This document shows positions 20,400 to 40,373 of a DNA stretch of 41,151 nt, one piece after another. Every line of letters starts with the position of its first letter. The first letter of the stretch is position 1. This DNA comes from an uncultured Clostridium sp. (GTDB lineage: Bacteria > Bacillota > Clostridia > TANB77 > CAG-508): the NCBI GenBank assembly GCA_946496575.1, contig CAMMHE010000012.1, positions 1-41,151 of the forward strand, given 5' to 3'. The position numbers and the translations under genes were made by a program. Under the pieces are notes generated by a model that was given only the letters and a program-made list of their open reading frames with translations, made no database searches and had not been told where the DNA came from.

Positions 20400-23198
20400 A
20401 TGATGAGTATATTTAGCAAAATATTTAAATCATATAGTGAAAAAGAAGTAAAAAGAATTTTACCAATCGTAGAAAACATAAATAATTTAGAAGAAGAAAT
20501 TTCAAAATTAACAGATAAAGAATTAAGAAATAAAACAGAAGAATTTAAAGAGCAATTAAGAAACGGAAAAACACTAGATGATATATTACCAGAAGCATTT
20601 GCAGTAGTTAGAGAAGCATCTAAAAGAGTATTAGGAATGAGGCATTTTGACGTACAATTAATAGGTGGAGTTGTATTACATCAAGGAAGAATTGCAGAGA
20701 TGAAAACTGGAGAGGGGAAAACGTTAGTTGCAACTTTACCAGTATACTTAAATGCTCTAACAGGTAAAGGAGTTCATGTTATTACAGTTAATGATTATTT
20801 AGCCAAAAGAGATAGTGAGTGGATGGGAAAACTATATAAGTTTCTAGGTTTATCAGTAGGTTTAGTAATTTCAAGAATGAATCCAAAAGATAAACAAAAA
20901 GCCTATGCATGTGATATTACATATGGAACAAATAATGAATTTGGATTTGATTATTTAAGAGATAATATGGTTATATACAAAGACCAATTAGTACAAAGAG
21001 GATTAGCATATGCTATAGTAGATGAAATTGATAGTATTCTCATAGATGAAGCGAGAACACCACTTATAATATCAGGTAGAGCAAATCAATCTTCTGACTT
21101 ATATAAAAAAGCAAATGATTTTGTAAAAAAATTAAATGCAAAAGTAATTGTAGAAGAAAATGTAAAAGATTTTGAACAAGCAGAAGATAATGAAAATTAT
21201 GATTATATAGTTGATTTAAAAGCAAAATCAGCATCTTTAACACAGAAAGGAATAAAAAAAGCTGAACAAGAATTTAAATTAGAAAATTTTAACGATATAG
21301 AGAATTCAACTTTAGTTCATCATGTTAATCAAGCATTACGTGCGCATGGTATTATGAAAAAAGATATCGATTACATTGTAAAAGATGGAGAAGTACTAAT
21401 AGTAGATGAGTTTACAGGACGTATTATGTATGGTAGAAGATATAATAATGGTCTTCATCAGGCAATAGAAGCTAAAGAACATGTAAAAATAGCTGATGAG
21501 TCTAAAACATTAGCTACCATAACATTCCAAAACTATTTTAGAATGTATGAAAAATTATCAGGAATGACAGGTACAGCATTAACAGAAGAAGAGGAATTCC
21601 AAGAAATATATAATTTGGATGTAGTCTCAATCCCTACAAATAAACCATTAATTAGAATCGACCAAAATGATGTAATATATAAAAATGAAAAAGCCAAATA
21701 TAATGCAATTGTTGAGAGTATAAAAGAAAGCAATAAAAAAGGTCAACCAGTGCTTGTGGGAACAATATCAATTGAAAAATCTGAAAAATTAAGTAGAATA
21801 TTAAGTAAAGAAGGAATAAAGCATGAAGTGTTAAATGCTAAATTTCATGAAAAAGAAGCAGAAATCATAGCACAAGCAGGTAAGTTTGGTGCTGTAACTA
21901 TTGCAACTAATATGGCAGGACGTGGTACTGATATTATGCTAGGCGGAAATAGTGAATTTTTGGCAAAACAAGAAATGCGTAAAAACAAAATATCAGAAGA
22001 ATTAATAGAGGAATCAAACACATATTATGAAACTGAAAATGAAGAGATATTACAAGCTAGAGATACATTTAAAGAACTGGAAAATAAGTTTAACCAGCAA
22101 ATAAAAGAAGAAAAAGACAAAGTAATTAAAGCTGGTGGATTAAAAATTATAGGAACTGAACGTCACGAGTCAAGAAGAATTGATAATCAATTACGTGGTC
22201 GTAGTGGACGTCAAGGAGATCCAGGAGAATCTAAATTCTATATAGGTTTAGATGATGATTTAATGAAGATATTTGGTGGAGATGCAATAACAAAAGTATT
22301 TAATTCACTTGGAGTAGATGAAAATATGCCAATAGATTCAAAAATTATATCTAATTCTGTAGAATCAGCTCAAAAGAAAGTAGAAGGACGTAATTTTACT
22401 ATTAGAAAAAATGTATTAAAGTATGATGATGTAATGAATACACAAAGAGAAATAATCTATAAACAAAGAAGGCAAGTATTAGATGGTGAAAATTTAAGTG
22501 GTAATATTGCTAAAATGATAGATTCAGTTGCAGAAAACATCGTTCTTACATATTACAATGGAGATGAGCATGTTGATGAAATAAATTTTCAAAGCTTAGG
22601 AACAGATATAAGAAATACTTTTGGAATAGAAGTATATGAAGATGCAAAAGAATTTATCAAACAGAATTTTAAAGATAGCAATATTGTAATAGAAGAATTA
22701 AAAAAACAAGCACATAAACATTATGAAGCAAAGGAACTTGAAATTGGAAGTGAACATTTAAGAGAATTAGAAAGAATTGTAATGTTAAAGGTTGTAGACC
22801 AAAAATGGATGGATCATATAGACAGTATGGAGGAATTAAAAAATGGTATAGGTCTTCGTGCATATGGACAAAAAGATCCTGTTGTGCAATATCGAATTGA
22901 AGGATTTGATATGTTTGAACAAATGATAGAAGATATCAAATTAGATGTAGTTAAAATGCTTATGAATTTGCGCAAGCAAGAAGAAGTGCGAAGAGAGGAA
23001 ACAGCAAAAATTATGGGTGCAGCTTTACAAACTTTACAAGGTTTAGATAATAATGGTAAAAAAATGCAAGATAATACTAATTCAGACGCAACTGTTAATA
23101 AAACTGTTGTAAATCAAGAACCTAAAGTAGGTAGAAATGAACCATGCCCATGTGGAAGTGGTAAGAAATACAAAAACTGCTGTGGAAGAAATCAGTAA
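20400..23198 (+). CDS. secA: Preprotein translocase ATPase SecA
   Basis: Full-length SecA (932 residues), the motor that drives preproteins through SecYEG. Visible: the N-terminal YSEKEVKRI, Walker [14 protein letters not shown] (about 101-113), [11 protein letters not shown], the DEAD-like box [22 protein letters not shown], the preprotein-crosslinking domain, motif [31 protein letters not shown], and the C-terminal SEC-C zinc motif [23 protein letters not shown] (20388-20394) places the start at ATG 20400 (or 20403). The last 51 bp are the left copy of a duplicated integrase target, so the present secA 3' end belongs to the inserted element's attL but encodes the normal C-terminus. Confidence 0.97.
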
Positions 23199-23199
23199 T
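23149..23199. repeat. attL: 51-bp core repeat, left copy
   Basis: Identical to 39616-39666. It spans codons for [15 protein letters not shown], the stop codon and 1 nt beyond. Partial identity continues for about 16 bp (tcaatgcttt, then agaga) with two mismatches. Confidence 0.88.
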
Positions 23200-23251
23200 A
23201 TCAATGCTTTTAGAGATTGGTAAAGTAAACATAAATATGAAAACACACTAA

Positions 23252-23276
23252 ATTGTTTGCATTTTGTTTGCAAAAT
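23252..23276. repeat. Integrase arm-type repeat, copy A
   Basis: Two tandem 11-bp units, each beginning with TTGTTTGCA, 53 nt inside attL. A reverse-oriented TTGCAAACAAA lies at 23333-23343. The same 24-bp motif recurs at 39474 and 40232, near the other end of the element, as expected of arm-type integrase sites. Confidence 0.65.
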
Positions 23277-23358
23277 GTTTTCATAGGTCTATTTAAAATC
23301 TTTGAAATACTTGAAAATAAAGAATTACAGAGTTGCAAACAAAGTGAATAGAAATTAT

Positions 23359-23391
23359 AGAAATGTTATCATTCGTGGTAGCATTTCTTTT
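23359..23391 (+). terminator. Terminator-like hairpin between secA and the integrase
   Basis: A 10-bp stem (23359-23368 with 23379-23388, one G-T) is followed by TTTG. It stands 34 nt before the integrase start and would shield the integrase from secA readthrough or act as an attenuator. Confidence 0.5.
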
Positions 23392-23424
23392 GTTTACATT
23401 CGAATTTTGAAAGGAGAATGTAAA

Positions 23425-24696
23425 ATGTCAAATGTAACAATTCAAAAGAGAGGAAAATACTATCAATACAAATTTGAAATTGCAAAAGTTGATGGTAAAA
23501 GAAAATTTTTAAACAAATCAGGATTCAAAACAAAAGCTGAAGCAGAAAAAGAAGGAATAATTGCATATAATGCTTATATTAATACAGGACATGATTTTGA
23601 ACCAAGTGATATGAATTATTCAGACTTGTTAGATTATTGGATAGAAAAATATTGCTATGTTAATTTAAAATATCATACTATAGAGGCTTATCAAAGTATT
23701 ATTAAAAATCATATTAAGCCTAATATTGGATTTTATAGATTATCACAAATTACAAGAGCAATGTTACAAGAATTTATTAATCAAATATATATTAATAAAT
23801 CATTTAGTAAAAATTTTTTGAATAATATAAAAAAAGTTATAAAATGTTCAATGAATTATGCATATGAATATGATTATATAAAAATAAATCCTGCAATAGG
23901 ATTAAAATTACCTAAATATGATATTCCACCAAAAGATCCAGCCCATATATTTACTAATGAAGAAATTAATATGATATTAGAAAGATTTAAAAATAATCAT
24001 TGTGTTTACTATGCATTTCTTACTGCATATTGTACTGGATTAAGAGTTGCTGAAGTATTTGCATTAACTTGGAATGACATAGATTTCAGGAATAAAACAA
24101 TTAGCGTAAATAAAAACATACTAAAAAAGAATCAAAATGGTGCTACAAAGAAAAGACATATAAGTGGTAATTCAACAACAGTATGGTATTTTGGAACTTG
24201 TAAAACACAAACAAGCTATAGAACTATACCAATAGGAGATACTTTATTAAATGCACTTAAAACTTATAAGAAAGAGCAAGAAGAAAATAAAATTAATTAT
24301 GGTGATACATATATGAAACATTATAAAAAGAGTGTTATTAATTCATATAATAACAAAACAGAAACAAAAATTGTAAATGCATATTCTGAAATTGATGTAG
24401 CATTAGAAGAAGTAGATTTTGTTTTTGTAAAGAAAAACGGAGTATATGAAGGTACAGATAGTTGTAAATATCCTTTTAAAGTAATTCATTATGAATTGGG
24501 AATACCTTGCAGATTTCACGACTTTAGAGATACTCATGCGACTAGACTTATTGAGTCAGGAGCAGATATAAAGGCAGTTTCAAAAAGACTAGGACATAGA
24601 AATATTGATATAACATATAACATTTATGTAAGAGTAACGGAAAAAATGGAAAATGAAACAGCAAATAAATTTGAAGAAATATGCAATTTTTTATAA
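23425..24696 (+). CDS. Tyrosine integrase of the secA-inserted element
   Basis: A 423-residue integrase: AP2-like arm-binding domain (VTIQKRGKYYQYKFEIAKVDG), core-binding domain (about 60-170) and catalytic domain. Catalytic residues are complete: Arg in CTGLRVAEVFAL, HDFR in CRFHDFRDTHATR, His in RLGHRNIDIT and Tyr in YNIYVRVT. It sits 225 bp from the attL core, the usual place for the enzyme that recognises that att site, so it is the best candidate for integration into secA. AAAGGAG (about 23410) decides the ATG at 23425 against an in-frame TTG at 23302. It is clearly paralogous to the integrase at 28032 (shared N-terminus VTIQKRGKYYQYKFE). Confidence 0.92.
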   Translation: MSNVTIQKRGKYYQYKFEIAKVDGKRKFLNKSGFKTKAEAEKEGIIAYNAYINTGHDFEPSDMNYSDLLDYWIEKYCYVNLKYHTIEAYQSIIKNHIKPNIGFYRLSQITRAMLQEFINQIYINKSFSKNFLNNIKKVIKCSMNYAYEYDYIKINPAIGLKLPKYDIPPKDPAHIFTNEEINMILERFKNNHCVYYAFLTAYCTGLRVAEVFALTWNDIDFRNKTISVNKNILKKNQNGATKKRHISGNSTTVWYFGTCKTQTSYRTIPIGDTLLNALKTYKKEQEENKINYGDTYMKHYKKSVINSYNNKTETKIVNAYSEIDVALEEVDFVFVKKNGVYEGTDSCKYPFKVIHYELGIPCRFHDFRDTHATRLIESGADIKAVSKRLGHRNIDITYNIYVRVTEKMENETANKFEEICNFL

Positions 24697-26790: not shown

Positions 26791-27783
26791 ATGGCATATA
26801 CAATATTGAGATTTAAAAAGGATAAAGGAGGAGCCGTAGCTGGGTGTGAAAGACATAATGAGAGAAAAAAGGAGGCATATAAAAGCAATCCAGATATAGA
26901 TGTAAATAAATCACAATATAATTATCATACAGTACAAGCACCACAATACACATATTCAAGGAAAATAAAAGACTTGATAAAGAAATATGGGTGTAAAGTT
27001 AGAAAAGATAGTGTGAAATTGGTTGAAACTTTAATTACAGCTACCCCAGAGTTTATGAATAAATTAACTGAAAAAGAAAAAAGAGAATATTTTGAAAGGG
27101 CAACAGAATTTATTAAACAGGAAATAGGAGAAGATAGAATAATATCAGCAGTAGTTCATATGGATGAGGCAACTCCACATATGCATTTGGCATTTTGCCC
27201 AATAAATAAAGATGGAAAATTATCAGCTAAAAGTATACTGGGAAATCAAAAGTCACTATCACAGTGGCAAACAAAATTCTATGAATTCATGCATGAAAGA
27301 TGGAAGGAGCTAGAGAGAGGAAGATCAGCACAAGAAACTAAAAGAAAGCATATTCCAACATGGTTATTTAAAATGGCAGATAATCTAGATTATTTATATC
27401 ACAAATTATCTAACGTAATAGAAAACATTAATTTAATTGGTATGAAAAAAGACAAAGCAGAGGCAATTGAATTATTATCTGAGTTTGTACCAAAAGCTCA
27501 AAAATTTTCAGCTAAAGTGAATTCATATAAAGATTATATTAGAGAGTTGGAAATTAAGGTAATCAATCAAAAATACGATAACAAAGAACTTATGGAAGAA
27601 AATAATGAATTGAAAAAAGAAATGGGAGATAAAGAATTTGAAACTAGCATGAAATTAATGAATATGCAAAATCAAATTAAGAAGTATGAAAAATATATAA
27701 AGAAAATTCCAAAAGATGTCCTTGATGAAATTGATAGAAAAGAACGAGAACATAATTATAAAGATAAGGAGATGGAAAGATAA
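26791..27783 (+). CDS. MobV/Pre-family relaxase
   Basis: A 330-residue plasmid mobilization relaxase. Motif I is RHNER with His22, the position of the catalytic His22 reported for MobM of pMV158. Motif III is HMDEATPHMH (about 123-132), giving the metal ligands H123, E126, H130 and H132. The C-terminal 100 residues are a charged coiled coil. It would nick the GTGTGT hairpin at 26510 and lead single-strand transfer using another element's secretion system. AAGGGAG is about 9 nt before the ATG. Its stop overlaps the start of the excisionase gene (TAATG). Confidence 0.93.
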   Translation: MAYTILRFKKDKGGAVAGCERHNERKKEAYKSNPDIDVNKSQYNYHTVQAPQYTYSRKIKDLIKKYGCKVRKDSVKLVETLITATPEFMNKLTEKEKREYFERATEFIKQEIGEDRIISAVVHMDEATPHMHLAFCPINKDGKLSAKSILGNQKSLSQWQTKFYEFMHERWKELERGRSAQETKRKHIPTWLFKMADNLDYLYHKLSNVIENINLIGMKKDKAEAIELLSEFVPKAQKFSAKVNSYKDYIRELEIKVINQKYDNKELMEENNELKKEMGDKEFETSMKLMNMQNQIKKYEKYIKKIPKDVLDEIDRKEREHNYKDKEMER

Positions 27784-28031: not shown

Positions 28032-29309
28032 ATGGGAAATGTTACTATTCAAAAAAGAGGAAAATATTATCAATATAAATTTGAAGTATCAAAAGTAGAT
28101 GGAAAAAGAAAATTTATAAATAAATCTGGGTTTGAAACAAAAGATGAAGCTATAAAGGCAGGAAATATAGCATATACAGAATATTTAAATACAGGATTAG
28201 TATTTAAGGAAAAAGAAATATCATTTAGTGATTATTTAGATTATTGGTATGAAAACTATTGTGAAGTAAATTTAAAATATAATACAAGAAGAACTTATAA
28301 AACAATAATGGATAAGTATTTGAAAAAGGAACTTGGAAAGTATAGATTGAATTCTTTAACAAGTGTTAAATTAAATTCATTTATAGTTGATTTGTGTAAT
28401 AGATATAATTATAAAAAATCTTATTATAGTAATATTTTAAAAGTTCTAAAGAATTGTTTTAGAGTTGCAACTGATGTATATGGTTTTATAAAGTATAATC
28501 CAACAATTACCTTGAAACTTCCTAAAATAGAAGATAACAATGAATTTGAAAAACATTTGTATAATAAGCAAGAAATAAATAGAATTTTAGAGAGATTTAA
28601 AAATGATGACACATTTACATGTGCATTTATTACAAGTTGTTTTACAGGAATGAGAACAGGAGAAGTATGTAGCTTAACATGGGAAGATATTGACTTTAAG
28701 AATAGAATTATAAATGTAAAACATACAGTGTATGATAAGCCAAAAGATGAAAAAGGTAGATGGTATATTGGAACAACAAAAACAAAACAGGGAACTAGAC
28801 AGGTTAATATGTGTAAAACTTTATATAATGCATTGTTAAATTATAAAAAGAAACAAAAATATTTAAAGAAAATGTATGGAAATCAATATATGAGTTATCA
28901 TTTTGAGGATGTTAAAAATAAATATGGAAAAGTTGTAGAAAAACGTATTGTTCAAAATCAAAATAATATTTTACAAATAAATAATGCAAATATGGTATTT
29001 GTACGAGAAAACGGTAAATATGTTGGAAGAAATATTTTGAACTATCCATTTAAGATAATTCATAAAGAGCTTGGAATTGAAAATTGTAGATTTTATGATT
29101 TAAGAGGTAGTTATGCAACTACAATTTTAAGAAATGGCGTCGAAATAAGAGATGTTGCAGATATTTTAGGACATAAATTTATTGAAACTACTGAAAATTT
29201 TTATATCTTAAGTACAGATGAGAATAAAAAGGATGTAAGTGATGTTTTTGATAATCTTATGAGTTCAGATACAATTAATGAAATTATTAAATATGAGATA
29301 GCTTATTAA
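28032..29309 (+). CDS. Second tyrosine integrase, probably impaired
   Basis: A 425-residue paralogue of the integrase at 23425, with the same AP2-like start (VTIQKRGKYYQYKFEVSKVDG) and length. Catalytic Arg (FTGMRTGEVCSL), the second Arg (YDLRGSYATT), His of GHKF and the nucleophile Tyr (NFYIL) are present. The His of the H-x-x-R box is replaced by Tyr, however: FYDLR here against FHDFR in the paralogue. Loss of this His usually weakens catalysis. It is the last gene of the repA-mobV-xis-int module, so it may once have served a separate, smaller element now fused into this one. Confidence 0.85.
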   Translation: MGNVTIQKRGKYYQYKFEVSKVDGKRKFINKSGFETKDEAIKAGNIAYTEYLNTGLVFKEKEISFSDYLDYWYENYCEVNLKYNTRRTYKTIMDKYLKKELGKYRLNSLTSVKLNSFIVDLCNRYNYKKSYYSNILKVLKNCFRVATDVYGFIKYNPTITLKLPKIEDNNEFEKHLYNKQEINRILERFKNDDTFTCAFITSCFTGMRTGEVCSLTWEDIDFKNRIINVKHTVYDKPKDEKGRWYIGTTKTKQGTRQVNMCKTLYNALLNYKKKQKYLKKMYGNQYMSYHFEDVKNKYGKVVEKRIVQNQNNILQINNANMVFVRENGKYVGRNILNYPFKIIHKELGIENCRFYDLRGSYATTILRNGVEIRDVADILGHKFIETTENFYILSTDENKKDVSDVFDNLMSSDTINEIIKYEIAY

Positions 29310-29471: not shown

Positions 29472-30770
29472 ATGAAATCAATTGCAAAGCTTATACCTGA
29501 AGAAGAAACTTGCATTTTTGGCTTCGTAAGTAATATAAAGAATACGAAGTATATGCTTTTTCTTATGGTAAGAGAAGAAACAGGAGAAATACAGGTTAGT
29601 ATTGACAAGTCAGAGAACCCTGAGGTTTTTGCTGCCGCAGAAGGATTGACTAGAGAATCTACTGTAACAGTATATGGAAAGATGGTCTTAAATACTCATG
29701 TAAGAAATGGTGGGAAGGAATTTATTCCTACTAAACTTGAAGTTGAGACTATTGCAAATCCGTTGCCTATAGGAGAGGAATCTGGAAAATCTGCACAAAT
29801 TGAACACAGAGCATTAAGTATGCGTTTTGCCAAAAATCATCTCGCTATGCAAGTAGCTTCAGCAGTTGAGATGGCTATTTACGCTTATTGGAGCCAAAAT
29901 GAATACACTGTTATTCACACTCCGAAGCTTTTAGGTACACCATCTGAATCTGGAGCAGAGCTTTTTAAGCTTGAGTATTTTGGAAGCGAAGCATATTTGG
30001 CTCAGAGTAATCAACTGTACAAACAGATGGCTATTCAGGCAGGATTTAGAAAATTTGCTGAAATCGGACCTTCTTTCAGAGCTGATAACTCTAATACGAG
30101 CAGACATCAGACGGAATTTACTACTGTTGACTGTGAAATCGCAGGTCCAAGAAGCGTAGAAGAGGTTATGGCTGAACAGGAAAAACTTATTAAATATGTA
30201 TTTGAAAGTTTGATGGCACAGCGAGAACTTGTCAATAAGGTCAAGGAAAAATTTGGTGTAGAAATTGAAAAACCGATTTTTACAAGAATGACTTTTAAAG
30301 AGGCTAAAGAAATCTTGAAGAAGATTGGAGTTTTCGAAGAAAGCGCCAAAGATTTCTCTCCTGAAGAAGAAAGACAGATTTGTCGTTATGCTCTTGAAAA
30401 GTTTGGAGCACAGTTTGTGTTTGTGACAGAGTATCCGATTTCTGTGAGACCTTTTTATCACAAGAGACATTCTGAAACAACAACCGAGTCATACGACTTA
30501 CTGTTTAACGGAACCGAAATCACCACGGGTGCTGTAAGAGAACACAGACCCGAAATATTGGTAAAGCAGATCAGAGAAAAAGCTGAAGAGCTTAATTCTC
30601 CTAATTTAGAAAAATCATTGGAATCATATATTGAATTTTTCAACTATGGTTCTGTGCCACACGGTGGATTTGGAATGGGAGAAGCAAGATTTATTCAGCA
30701 GTTACTCAAAGCAGAATCTATTGAGGATGTAGTATTCCTTTCTAGAACACCTAACAGACTTTATCCATAA
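29472..30770 (+). CDS. Archaeal/eukaryotic-type aspartyl-tRNA synthetase
   Basis: A 432-residue class IIb synthetase: N-terminal OB-fold anticodon domain (about 13-95) and catalytic core with SESGAELFKLEYFGSEAYLAQS (about 158-179), motif 2 FRADNSNTSRHQTEF (202-216) and motif 3 HGGFGMGEARF (397-407). The size and lack of the long GAD insertion of bacterial AspRS place it with archaeal/eukaryotic-type AspRS or its AsnRS relatives; the QLYKQM-type segment favours AspRS. It charges tRNA-Asp, and possibly tRNA-Asn if non-discriminating. It is monocistronic, sits on a mobile element and is richer in G+C than the operon behind it, all pointing to transfer. Immunity against an AspRS inhibitor is a plausible role. 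AAGGAGG is 8 nt before the ATG. Confidence 0.85.
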   Translation: MKSIAKLIPEEETCIFGFVSNIKNTKYMLFLMVREETGEIQVSIDKSENPEVFAAAEGLTRESTVTVYGKMVLNTHVRNGGKEFIPTKLEVETIANPLPIGEESGKSAQIEHRALSMRFAKNHLAMQVASAVEMAIYAYWSQNEYTVIHTPKLLGTPSESGAELFKLEYFGSEAYLAQSNQLYKQMAIQAGFRKFAEIGPSFRADNSNTSRHQTEFTTVDCEIAGPRSVEEVMAEQEKLIKYVFESLMAQRELVNKVKEKFGVEIEKPIFTRMTFKEAKEILKKIGVFEESAKDFSPEEERQICRYALEKFGAQFVFVTEYPISVRPFYHKRHSETTTESYDLLFNGTEITTGAVREHRPEILVKQIREKAEELNSPNLEKSLESYIEFFNYGSVPHGGFGMGEARFIQQLLKAESIEDVVFLSRTPNRLYP

Positions 30771-30799
30771 GTTGCATTAGTTACGAATTGTAACAACAT

Positions 30800-30845
30800 A
30801 ATTCCCAATGCATACCATTTGGTGTGCATTGGGAATTTCTTTTTT
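30800..30845 (+). terminator. Strong terminator of the AspRS gene
   Basis: A 17-bp stem with one mismatch (30800-30816 with 30821-30837) is followed by TCTTTTTTT. Confidence 0.9.
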
Positions 30846-30867
30846 TATATAAATTAAGGATAAAGTA

Positions 30868-30896
30868 TTGAAAAATTATGTAAAACATGATATAAT
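30868..30896 (+). promoter_or_regulatory. Promoter of the ten-gene cargo operon
   Basis: TTGAAA at 30868-30873, a 17-bp spacer and TATAAT at 30891-30896 preceded by TGA (extended -10). No terminator was seen between the genes from 30928 to 39418. Confidence 0.75.
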
Positions 30897-30927
30897 GTCT
30901 CCCAAATTTATAATTAGGGGGTAAAGT

Positions 30928-31953
30928 ATGATAACAGAGCCAAATACTTGGAAAAATCCAAACAAACATTATTTAGAAGCGTTAAGAAACAAATGGTACA
31001 GACAGTTGATTTTATTGGAAAATTTAATTACGGAAGAAACAATGAAATTTTATGAAAAAAAGGGTATTATTACTATGCATTTGCCTGTTACAACAGGATC
31101 AATTTCAAGTCCAATGGGAAGAGGAAGTGATTCGATTCCTGTAAAAGTTAAGTTACAAGGTGTAGAAACATATTTAGCAGATTCTATGCAATTTTTATTA
31201 GAATATGGATGTAGACTAACAGAAAAAGGTTGCTATTATGTAATGCCATCTTTTAGAGGTGAAAATGCAGACGAAAGACATTTGTGCCAATTTTATCATA
31301 GTGAAGCAGAAATCCCAGGAACTTTAGAAGATATTATGAAGCTTGTTGAAGAGTATATTAAATATTTATCTAAAAGAATATTGGAAAGAATGGGTAAGGT
31401 ATTAGAAGAAAATATAGGCGATATTAGTCATATTGAGAAAATAGCTAATTATAAAGGAAGTTTTAAGAAAATAACATTTGATGAAGCTGAAAAAGTTTTA
31501 AAAGAAAAATATCCTAATAAGATAAAAGAGTTTATTGAATACGAAGATGGATGGAGAAACATTACAAGAAAGGCTGAAAAAGAATTAATAGATATATATG
31601 ACGGAATTGTTTGGATAACTAATTATGATGAATTAACAGTTCCGTTTTATCAAAAATTAGATTCAAATATTAAAGGAACAACAAGAAATGCAGATTTACT
31701 AATGGGAATTGGTGAAACAGTAGGTTGTGGAGAAAGGCATGAAACAGATAGCGAATTAATAGAGTCATTAGAAAGGCATTGTGTTAATCCAAATGAATAC
31801 GAATGGTATATAGAAATGAAAAAACATTACCCATATCAAACATCTGGCTTCGGAATGGGAGTAGAAAGATTTTTAATGTGGGTATTAAAATCAAAGGATA
31901 TAAGAAATTTTCAACTTTGTTTGAGATTTAATGGAGAAAATATTTTACCATAA
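30928..31953 (+). CDS. AsnRS-like catalytic core without anticodon domain
   Basis: A 341-residue class II synthetase core close to AsnRS but lacking the N-terminal OB fold. Motif 2 is PSFRGENADERHLCQFYHSE (108-127), ATP-site and dimer elements appear as DLLMGIGETVGCGERH (AsnRS-like) and motif 3 is GFGMGVERF (307-315). Stand-alone AsnRS paralogues of this build (archaeal AS-AR) make asparagine or related amides by activating Asp as adenylate and passing it to ammonia or an amine instead of tRNA. The expected role here is thus an ATP-dependent Asp (or Asp-containing) amide ligase. First gene of the operon; AGGGGG lies 7 nt before the ATG. The acceptor is unknown. Confidence 0.82.
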   Translation: MITEPNTWKNPNKHYLEALRNKWYRQLILLENLITEETMKFYEKKGIITMHLPVTTGSISSPMGRGSDSIPVKVKLQGVETYLADSMQFLLEYGCRLTEKGCYYVMPSFRGENADERHLCQFYHSEAEIPGTLEDIMKLVEEYIKYLSKRILERMGKVLEENIGDISHIEKIANYKGSFKKITFDEAEKVLKEKYPNKIKEFIEYEDGWRNITRKAEKELIDIYDGIVWITNYDELTVPFYQKLDSNIKGTTRNADLLMGIGETVGCGERHETDSELIESLERHCVNPNEYEWYIEMKKHYPYQTSGFGMGVERFLMWVLKSKDIRNFQLCLRFNGENILP

Positions 31954-39460: not shown

Positions 39461-39497
39461 AATGAATGTAAACATTGTTTGCATTTTGTTTGCAAAA
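39461..39497. repeat. Integrase arm-type repeat, copy B
   Basis: 37 bp identical to 40219-40255; its last 24 bp match copy A at 23252. Located 119 bp inside attR. Confidence 0.7.
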
Positions 39498-39615
39498 AAT
39501 TGGTACAATAAATAAAAATAGTACAGATAGTACAATAAATATAAACGGTTATAATCCATAATACAACTAATATACATGAATATTTATAATACAAATAATA
39601 CGGTAAAGAAATCTT

Positions 39616-39666
39616 CATGTGGAAGTGGTAAGAAATACAAAAACTGCTGTGGAAGAAATCAGTAAT
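39616..39666. repeat. attR: 51-bp core repeat, right copy
   Basis: Exact duplicate of the secA 3' end (23149-23199), including the stop codon. This is the original chromosomal tail of secA displaced by the insertion. Confidence 0.88.
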
Positions 39667-39669
39667 TTC

Positions 39670-39798
39670 AATGCTTTCAGAGAATTAATATCAGCAAATG
39701 AAGGCATAAAAAAGCCAGATAAAAAGATATTTAAAATACTACTAGATAGATATTTGCTAGAGCCACAAGAATGTCTTTTATTTCATGAAGAAGAATAA
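39670..39798 (+). pseudogene. Fragment of a HAD-family hydrolase
   Basis: An open stretch without a start codon translates to NAFRELISANEGIKKPDKKIFKILLDRY and on to LEPQECLLF, the motif III region (S-x-x-x-G-x-x-K-P-D-x-x-I-F...P-x-E-C-L) of HAD phosphatases. Motifs I and IV are missing. It begins right behind attR and is a truncated remnant. Confidence 0.65.
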
Positions 39799-39978
39799 AA
39801 ACAATTAAGATTATACATAAAAAGCATTATTCAAAATCCAGATTATGTTGTTATAAAACTAGCATTAGGACAAGATAAAGAACATAATAAAAATTCAATA
39901 ATAACATTAATGAAACTAAATAAAAGGACTTGGAATCAAACCATAAGAAATAGACGGAAAGATTATTTGGAAAAATAA
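39799..39978 (+). pseudogene. Decayed reading-frame remnant
   Basis: In the same frame after one stop, 59 codons stay open and read like protein (NPDYVVIKLALGQDKEHNKNSIITLMKLNK...). No start codon with a ribosome site is present, and I cannot name the family. Confidence 0.4.
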
Positions 39979-39991
39979 GGCCAAAAAAGAC

Positions 39992-40020
39992 TAGACAAAA
40001 ATGAATAAAAGTTGTATAAT
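39992..40020 (+). promoter_or_regulatory. Promoter of the small structured ncRNA
   Basis: TAGACA at 39992-39997, a 17-bp spacer and TATAAT at 40015-40020, with no ORF downstream. Confidence 0.7.
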
Positions 40021-40026
40021 AAAAGT

Positions 40027-40170
40027 ACAATATAAGTAGGTTATTTGAAGTGGACAATAGTGCCATCCACACACCTTTAAAAGGTCAAAAGAGATGCAGG
40101 ACTTGGCACACCTGCCAAATAACCAACGGTAAAAAAGGTAGAGATTTAGGTCTTTACCTTTAATTTTTTT
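40027..40170 (+). ncRNA. Structured ncRNA with four-way junction and kissing loop
   Basis: About 145 nt with its own promoter and terminator and no ORF. P1 is a 9-bp perfect helix (40039-40047 with 40116-40124) enclosing three hairpins: P2 GTGGA/TCCAC (40050-40054 with 40066-40070), P3 ACCTT/AAGGT (40073-40077 with 40081-40085) and P4 GCAGG/CCTGC (40096-40100 with 40111-40115). The P2 loop carries GTGCCA (40060-40065) and the P4 loop TGGCAC (40104-40109), an exact 6-nt complement, so the loops can kiss. P4 and P1 are directly adjacent and can stack. I recognise no described class; it could be a ligand-binding or protein-binding RNA. Confidence 0.7.
40134..40170 (+). terminator. Terminator of the small structured ncRNA
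   Basis: An 11-bp stem with one G-T pair (40134-40144 with 40151-40161) is followed by TTTTTTT. Confidence 0.85.
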
Positions 40171-40218
40171 GAGTAAAATATTGAATTTTTTAGATTATTA
40201 GCATATACTAATCAAAAA

Positions 40219-40255
40219 AATGAATGTAAACATTGTTTGCATTTTGTTTGCAAAA
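40219..40255. repeat. Integrase arm-type repeat, copy C, outside attR
   Basis: 37 bp identical to copy B. The sequence after it is also loosely similar to that after copy B for about 100 bp. No core repeat follows, so it is likely the remnant of an earlier related insertion. Confidence 0.65.
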
Positions 40256-40373
40256 TATTAGTACAAATAATATAATAAATACAAAAGGCTATAATCTGCA
40301 ATATTATTAGTATTAATAGATATTTATTGAAAGTTTTAAATAATCTTGTATCAGGATATTTTGAATTAGTGCT

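Follow-up and report, generated by a model that had tools for sequence, protein, structure and literature searches.

A structured RNA in a 41,151-nt stretch of DNA from an uncultured Clostridium sp. (hereafter, the window) is a skipping-rope RNA (Rfam RF02924), and RNAs of this family are commonly found a few tens of nucleotides downstream of genes for phage-derived nucleases of the PBECR2 and PBECR3 families. We infer that skipping-rope RNA is probably the RNA antitoxin, or immunity RNA, of these predicted BECR-fold ribonucleases, which supposes that the nuclease is toxic and that the RNA binds and inhibits it.

The window RNA and its mobile surroundings

An Rfam search matched window positions 40040-40123 to RF02924 over 80 of the 80 model positions, at 68.8 bits against a gathering cut-off of 36.7 (E = 1.1e-14). 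Rfam types the family as sRNA, and no second copy was found in the window's own genome. The preliminary description of this DNA had treated the RNA as unknown, which the match corrects; its account of a four-way junction RNA forming an independent structured gene agrees with both the match and the predicted fold (z -3.64 over 147 nt, with 0 of 200 shuffled sequences folding equally well). The parts that it had listed were all recovered: a promoter with 17-bp spacing (TAGACA-17-TATAAT, 39992-40020, matching the consensus at 11 of 12 positions), a 9-bp closing helix with three hairpins, and a terminator. From promoter to terminator, the predicted transcript is ~145 nt long. The features of the region are:

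39612-39662 (+), SecA 3' tail fragment, belonging to a 68-bp duplicate of the secA 3' end (39616-39683)
39739-39987 (+), degenerate PBECR-type nuclease pseudogene, matching the protein of relative L411 in two fragments
39992-39997 (+), -35 box TAGACA of the RNA promoter
40003-40008 (+), GAATAA, remnant of the nuclease frame end (..LDKNE*), where the stop codon of relatives lies
40015-40020 (+), -10 box TATAAT of the RNA promoter, also recurrent upstream of homologues
40040-40123 (+), skipping-rope RNA core (RF02924), cloverleaf P1-P4, from the Rfam match and the fold
40039-40047 with 40116-40124 (+), P1, 9 bp
40050-40054 with 40066-40070 (+), P2
40060-40065 (+), P2 loop kissing sequence GTGCCA, pairing with 40104-40109
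40072-40076 with 40082-40085 plus G40091 (+), P3
40096-40100 with 40111-40115 (+), P4
40104-40109 (+), P4 loop kissing sequence TGGCAC, pairing with 40060-40065
40134-40171 (+), Rho-independent terminator, 12-bp stem (stem region 40134-40161) and T-run

All 23 nested pairs and all six loop-loop pairs of the window RNA are standard (29 in total). When both loops were shuffled, a 6-nt Watson-Crick match arose by chance in 469 of 100,000 cases, and the loop-loop complementarity of the window is by itself modest evidence against chance. Small open reading frames that overlap the RNA (e.g., 39851-40072 on the minus strand) were dismissed as mechanical only, and ARAGORN and Rfam found no tRNA or tmRNA in the window.

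The nuclease pseudogene directly upstream covers residues 26-61 and 85-131 of its intact relative; the N-terminus is missing, and the frame carries an in-frame TAA and an internal deletion of about 75 nt. Searches with both Pfam families gave no PBECR match in the genome of the window. Judged from its sequence, the window RNA is a solo, antitoxin-like RNA that stayed intact while its nuclease decayed. Upstream of the pseudogene, 68 bp of the secA 3' end (23149-23216) recur at 97% identity. The preliminary description had rightly seen mobile debris around the RNA, and this copy is among it. Several relatives (L374, L411, L383 and L350) have secA upstream of their RNA.

Several further observations concern these surroundings. 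The two copies of the secA 3' end bracket 16.5 kb that starts with a tyrosine integrase gene (23302-24696), followed by an AAA protein gene, and that also encodes a Mob_Pre relaxase at 26791-27783 and another integrase at 28032-29309; this segment is a candidate integrative element, or elements, at the secA 3' end. Beside the integrases, two class II synthetase-like genes adjoin each other (29472-31953), one of the Asp/Asn/Lys type with an OB fold and the next a core-only paralogue. A 65-nt direct repeat (36 nt identical; 39461-39525 and 40219-40283) flanks the debris and the RNA. A 28-nt part of it recurs at 23252, just after secA, and relative L395 has one copy of the repeat. Fused to the PBECR remnant is a frame (39690-39775) that by eye resembles the motif IV region of HAD-like hydrolases (KPDKKIFKILLDRYLLEPQEC).

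Conservation of the fold and of the gene signals

The homologues came from three kinds of source: genomes within the same order and class, viral contigs, and contigs of genomes. Viral (IMG/VR) copies were counted only after passing a structure test, the initial pattern being loose and its matches mostly due to chance. Pairing was counted from structure-anchored segments, as a MAFFT alignment placed the loops wrongly. The structure-anchored detector returned 199 distinct cores and had one match in 218 kb of shuffled DNA. At almost all positions of P1, P2 and P4, many alternative pairs occur; these helices were, however, detection criteria, which leaves the loop-loop helix, not used for detection, as the sole unbiased test of pairing. 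Across 129 distinct loop pairs, the mean loop-loop pairing score was 10.16, compared with 8.01 ± 0.18 when partners were shuffled, and the highest score among 500 shuffles was 8.50. The loop-loop helix is thus genuine and kept across these 129 pairs, as the preliminary description had supposed from the GTGCCA/TGGCAC complement; it had also looked to compensatory changes among homologues to decide its model, and for the loop pair these same scores are favorable. Kissing pairs that we saw include, besides the GTGCCA/TGGCAC of the window, CGTGGT/ACCACG, CGTACAG/TTGTACG and GTGAC/GTCAC, and a pseudoknot is already listed by Rfam for RF02924 (PMC7779021). A near relative (L005) differs from the window RNA at 6 of 84 positions, with two compensatory double changes, in P1 and P2, each from G-C to A-T, a substitution at an unpaired position, and another that disrupts a loop-loop pair. 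The RF02924 match and the loop pairing conserved across homologues were decisive in our judging the RNA real.

The signals of a separate gene recur with the fold. An exact TATAAT precedes 107 of 201 homologues, mostly 23-26 nt 5' of P1, versus 17 of 201 shuffled sequences, and terminators follow 114 of the 201 copies, versus 7 in shuffles. Seven loci carry two skipping-rope RNAs in tandem, 13-30 nt apart, and one locus carries three; within a locus, the loop pairs of the tandem copies differ from one another, each matching itself. At locus L516 (1856-2181), three skipping-rope-like RNAs with distinct matching loop pairs stand in tandem after a truncated PBECR frame. The window RNA itself had no blastn match among phages and plasmids, while other subtypes did match phages.

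The nuclease gene upstream of the RNA

We clustered all open frames around 221 RNA placements with no family preselected. One neighbor family dominated, being present at 128 loci, nearly always upstream and on the same strand, at a median gap of 36 nt. Many of its members are stand-alone proteins of ~120-160 residues, and others form the C-terminal part of minor head proteins of phages. All eight members tested exceed the Pfam cut-off for PBECR2 or PBECR3 (the L439 protein scores 39.9 bits against 27.1), and each of 40 diverse members gives a PBECR2 match at E<0.01. A profile search placed a PBECR domain within 400 nt upstream of 34 of the 50 RF02924 matches that had sufficient upstream DNA, while only 12 matches to the domain lay elsewhere across all loci. 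Intact orthologues of the window's nuclease directly precede the RNA at L411 and L439, and in relatives of the window the spacer of the RNA promoter contains the stop codon of the nuclease, ~30 nt before P1. The Streptococcus suis prophage phiJH1301-1 carries a nuclease-RNA pair 25 nt apart, beside an att site. The preliminary description had called the RNA an orphan; this stands insofar as no gene follows it, but a conserved partner gene precedes it in relatives.

Downstream of the RNA, no family was dominant among the 221 placements, the largest groups being phage structural genes at a few loci. We therefore rejected a riboswitch or attenuator, as the preliminary description had done for an ordinary riboswitch; its hint at a ligand-binding RNA has no support, given the lack of a conserved downstream gene and the many copies with their own promoter and terminator.

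PBECR2 and PBECR3 are phage Barnase-EndoU-ColicinE5/D-RelE-like nucleases that Iyer and colleagues predicted to be RNases (PMC5512222). According to that study, they are frequently joined to MuF or portal proteins, are probably injected, and have targets that it named tentatively (PMC5512222). Neither PADLOC nor NCBIfam gave a useful name for the nuclease, and no convincing solved relative was found by sequence. We further examined an AlphaFold model of the intact relative L439 (mean pLDDT 95.3). Foldseek by itself returned no match under E 0.001, and realigning its candidates placed BrnT (Z 7.0, 76 residues, rmsd 3.0 Å) and the colicin D tRNase (Z 6.9, 87 residues, rmsd 2.9 Å) among the leading neighbors, along with a Salmonella toxin, CdiA toxins and RelE-type toxins. 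This list of neighbors of a predicted structure agrees with the Pfam name, at middling Z values, under 8. Two His, one Pro and one Lys are strongly conserved in the nuclease.

The association was then read in the reverse direction by searching RF02924, PBECR2 and PBECR3 in the same 391 genomes, in which RNA and PBECR co-occur at the genome level (Fisher p about 5e-31). Of the short PBECR genes above the cut-off, 39 of 43 are followed by the RNA on the same strand, 39-198 nt past the end of the domain. Among the four exceptions, G193 has a diverged RNA overlooked by the Rfam search, G299 has a decayed RNA, and G189 is not a true solo gene but part of a larger protein, with the frame running on, which leaves G120 as an intact-looking PBECR gene truly without RNA. 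Large polyvalent PBECR proteins lack the RNA in 7 of 11 cases. As for the RNAs, 45 of 72 have the nuclease and 27 (about a third) are solo, with no recognizable PBECR upstream. The enzyme thus almost never occurs without the RNA, while the RNA can occur without the enzyme. RNA and nuclease distances are correlated (Mantel r 0.77, with 0 of 2000 permutations as high; 0.67 for protein distances over 0.5), which shows joint inheritance, not function.

Solo RNAs are also found in phages. The RNA is present, and PBECR absent from the whole record, in Lactococcus phage 949, Enterocloster phage CB457P2, satellite Javan99, phage Javan308 and Dulem virus 33. A toxin-free antidote would be expected of a phage that disarms such a toxin. 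In Lactococcus phage 949, the solo RNA (L175, 3994-4072) sits within an array of tRNA genes, and in Javan99 the streptococcal sRNA SpF41 (RF02435) lies 42 nt before the skipping-rope RNA (L173, 7856-7958).

Proposed function and comparison with known systems

The near-obligate linkage, the co-divergence, the RNA's own promoter and terminator signals, the tandem arrays, the solo phage RNAs, the toxins among the structural neighbors of the nuclease model and the abiF precedent described below all support an antitoxin. Counting against it are a gene order opposite to that of type III systems, the RNA-free PBECR gene G120, the third of RNAs lacking a recognizable PBECR upstream, and the middling structural scores. 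In the mechanism that we propose, the PBECR nuclease would act alone or fused to MuF-type head proteins of phages. Its gene would come first, with its last codons overlapping the separate promoter of the RNA, which would end at its own terminator. The rigid RNA would bind the nuclease and block the active site, as ToxI does to ToxN, and the nuclease would act when the supply of RNA falls or when it enters a cell free of the RNA. The window would then represent a locus whose nuclease decayed and whose RNA may persist as a solo antitoxin. The preliminary description had raised a defense RNA, which fits this antitoxin-like reading and is possible.

Linkage and co-divergence would fit any partner RNA, including a cofactor or target of the enzyme, and the RNA might accordingly be a substrate, cofactor or guide that activates or directs the nuclease instead of inhibiting it. 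We consider this unlikely because a cofactor should show the opposite solo bias: the RNAs persist alone, both in the window with its dead nuclease and in phages without PBECR, whereas the nuclease is almost never alone. That the RNA is a free-standing gene with its own promoter and terminator signals, of Rfam type sRNA, would also suit a trans-acting sRNA that merely travels beside PBECR genes, or a type I-like silencer of the nuclease mRNA. A mere passenger, however, would not accompany 39 of 43 short PBECR genes, and the conserved feature is structure, not an exposed seed. The RNA is predicted to pair about as well with the start regions of other loci's nuclease genes as with that of its own (-23.81 for its own versus -23.48 ± 0.44 kcal/mol), and whole-frame pairing is only slightly better (-30.65 versus -29.67 ± 0.32 kcal/mol). 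We consider an sRNA of either kind unlikely. Type I antisense action proper was rejected, the RNA lying on the same strand as the nuclease with no excess complementarity to its own start region.

The RNA is on the same strand as the nuclease and often about 30 nt past its stop codon, as would be the case for a structured 3' end of the nuclease mRNA, such as a stability or termination element. Yet many loci have a promoter-like -10 box between the stop codon and the RNA, 27 of 72 RNAs are solo and no downstream gene is conserved, and we regard this explanation as very improbable. An antitoxin RNA remains our preferred reading.

The antitoxin may, in addition, serve as a tRNA-shaped decoy. The tRNA (RF00005) and RF02924 consensus structures are both cloverleafs with identical junction spacers of 2/1/4/0 nt. 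In tRNA, the loops of the first and third arms are in contact, and in RF02924 those of the same two arms are as well. Skipping-rope RNA nevertheless differs from tRNA in having no sequence match, an 8-bp P1, a bulged P3, a Watson-Crick loop-loop helix, no CCA end and its own terminator. The tRNA-like junction spacing and the colicin D-like enzyme model make a decoy plausible. More speculatively, and with clearly less confidence than in an antitoxin as such, skipping-rope RNAs could be tRNA-shaped decoys that imitate the substrate of a colicin D-like tRNase, guard both MuF-delivered and solo PBECR nucleases, and travel with other phages and satellites as a free-standing antidote.

The window RNA shares its helices and loop-loop pseudoknot with RF02924, with no structural difference. 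Type III toxin-antitoxin systems (ToxIN, CptIN and TenpIN) have in common with the PBECR pair a ribonuclease (predicted here) beside a small pseudoknotted RNA with a terminator, an RNA that is sometimes in tandem copies (a minority here, where it is usually single), and links to phages. In type III systems, the RNA repeats come before the toxin under one promoter (PMC5086642), whereas here the nuclease gene comes first and the RNA lies downstream with its own promoter, the predicted toxin fold is BECR (RelE/colicin D-like) as opposed to ToxN, and the RNA is about 80 nt long with a four-way junction. If our proposal holds, the pair would be type III-like, yet by gene order no member of type III. 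The nearest precedent is the abiF-motif RNA: RCd22 of C. difficile neutralizes the adjacent prophage AbiF/Abi_2 toxin by direct binding (PMC12373285). There, the RNA lies upstream of the toxin, and both RNA and protein are unrelated to skipping-rope and PBECR. For the MuF polymorphic toxins of temperate phages, the proposed immunity factors are small proteins (PMC5576092); some PBECR domains form the C-terminal end of a phage head protein whose gene immediately precedes the RNA, and there an RNA would replace the small immunity protein.

In the open literature on PBECR, MuF, skipping-rope and RNA antitoxins, a scope outside which the original motif description falls, we found no paper linking PBECR to skipping-rope RNA, and none stating a function for skipping-rope or an RNA antidote for PBECR. 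The RNA and its kissing-loop fold are already known, and the link to a PBECR partner appears new. If true, this link would give a testable function to the widespread skipping-rope family and to the widespread predicted PBECR RNases, and would place an RNA as the immunity factor against polymorphic toxins delivered by phages, and would explain why some phages carry the solo RNA. It would also define a class of toxin-antitoxin systems whose toxin and RNA folds are both new and whose gene order is reversed.
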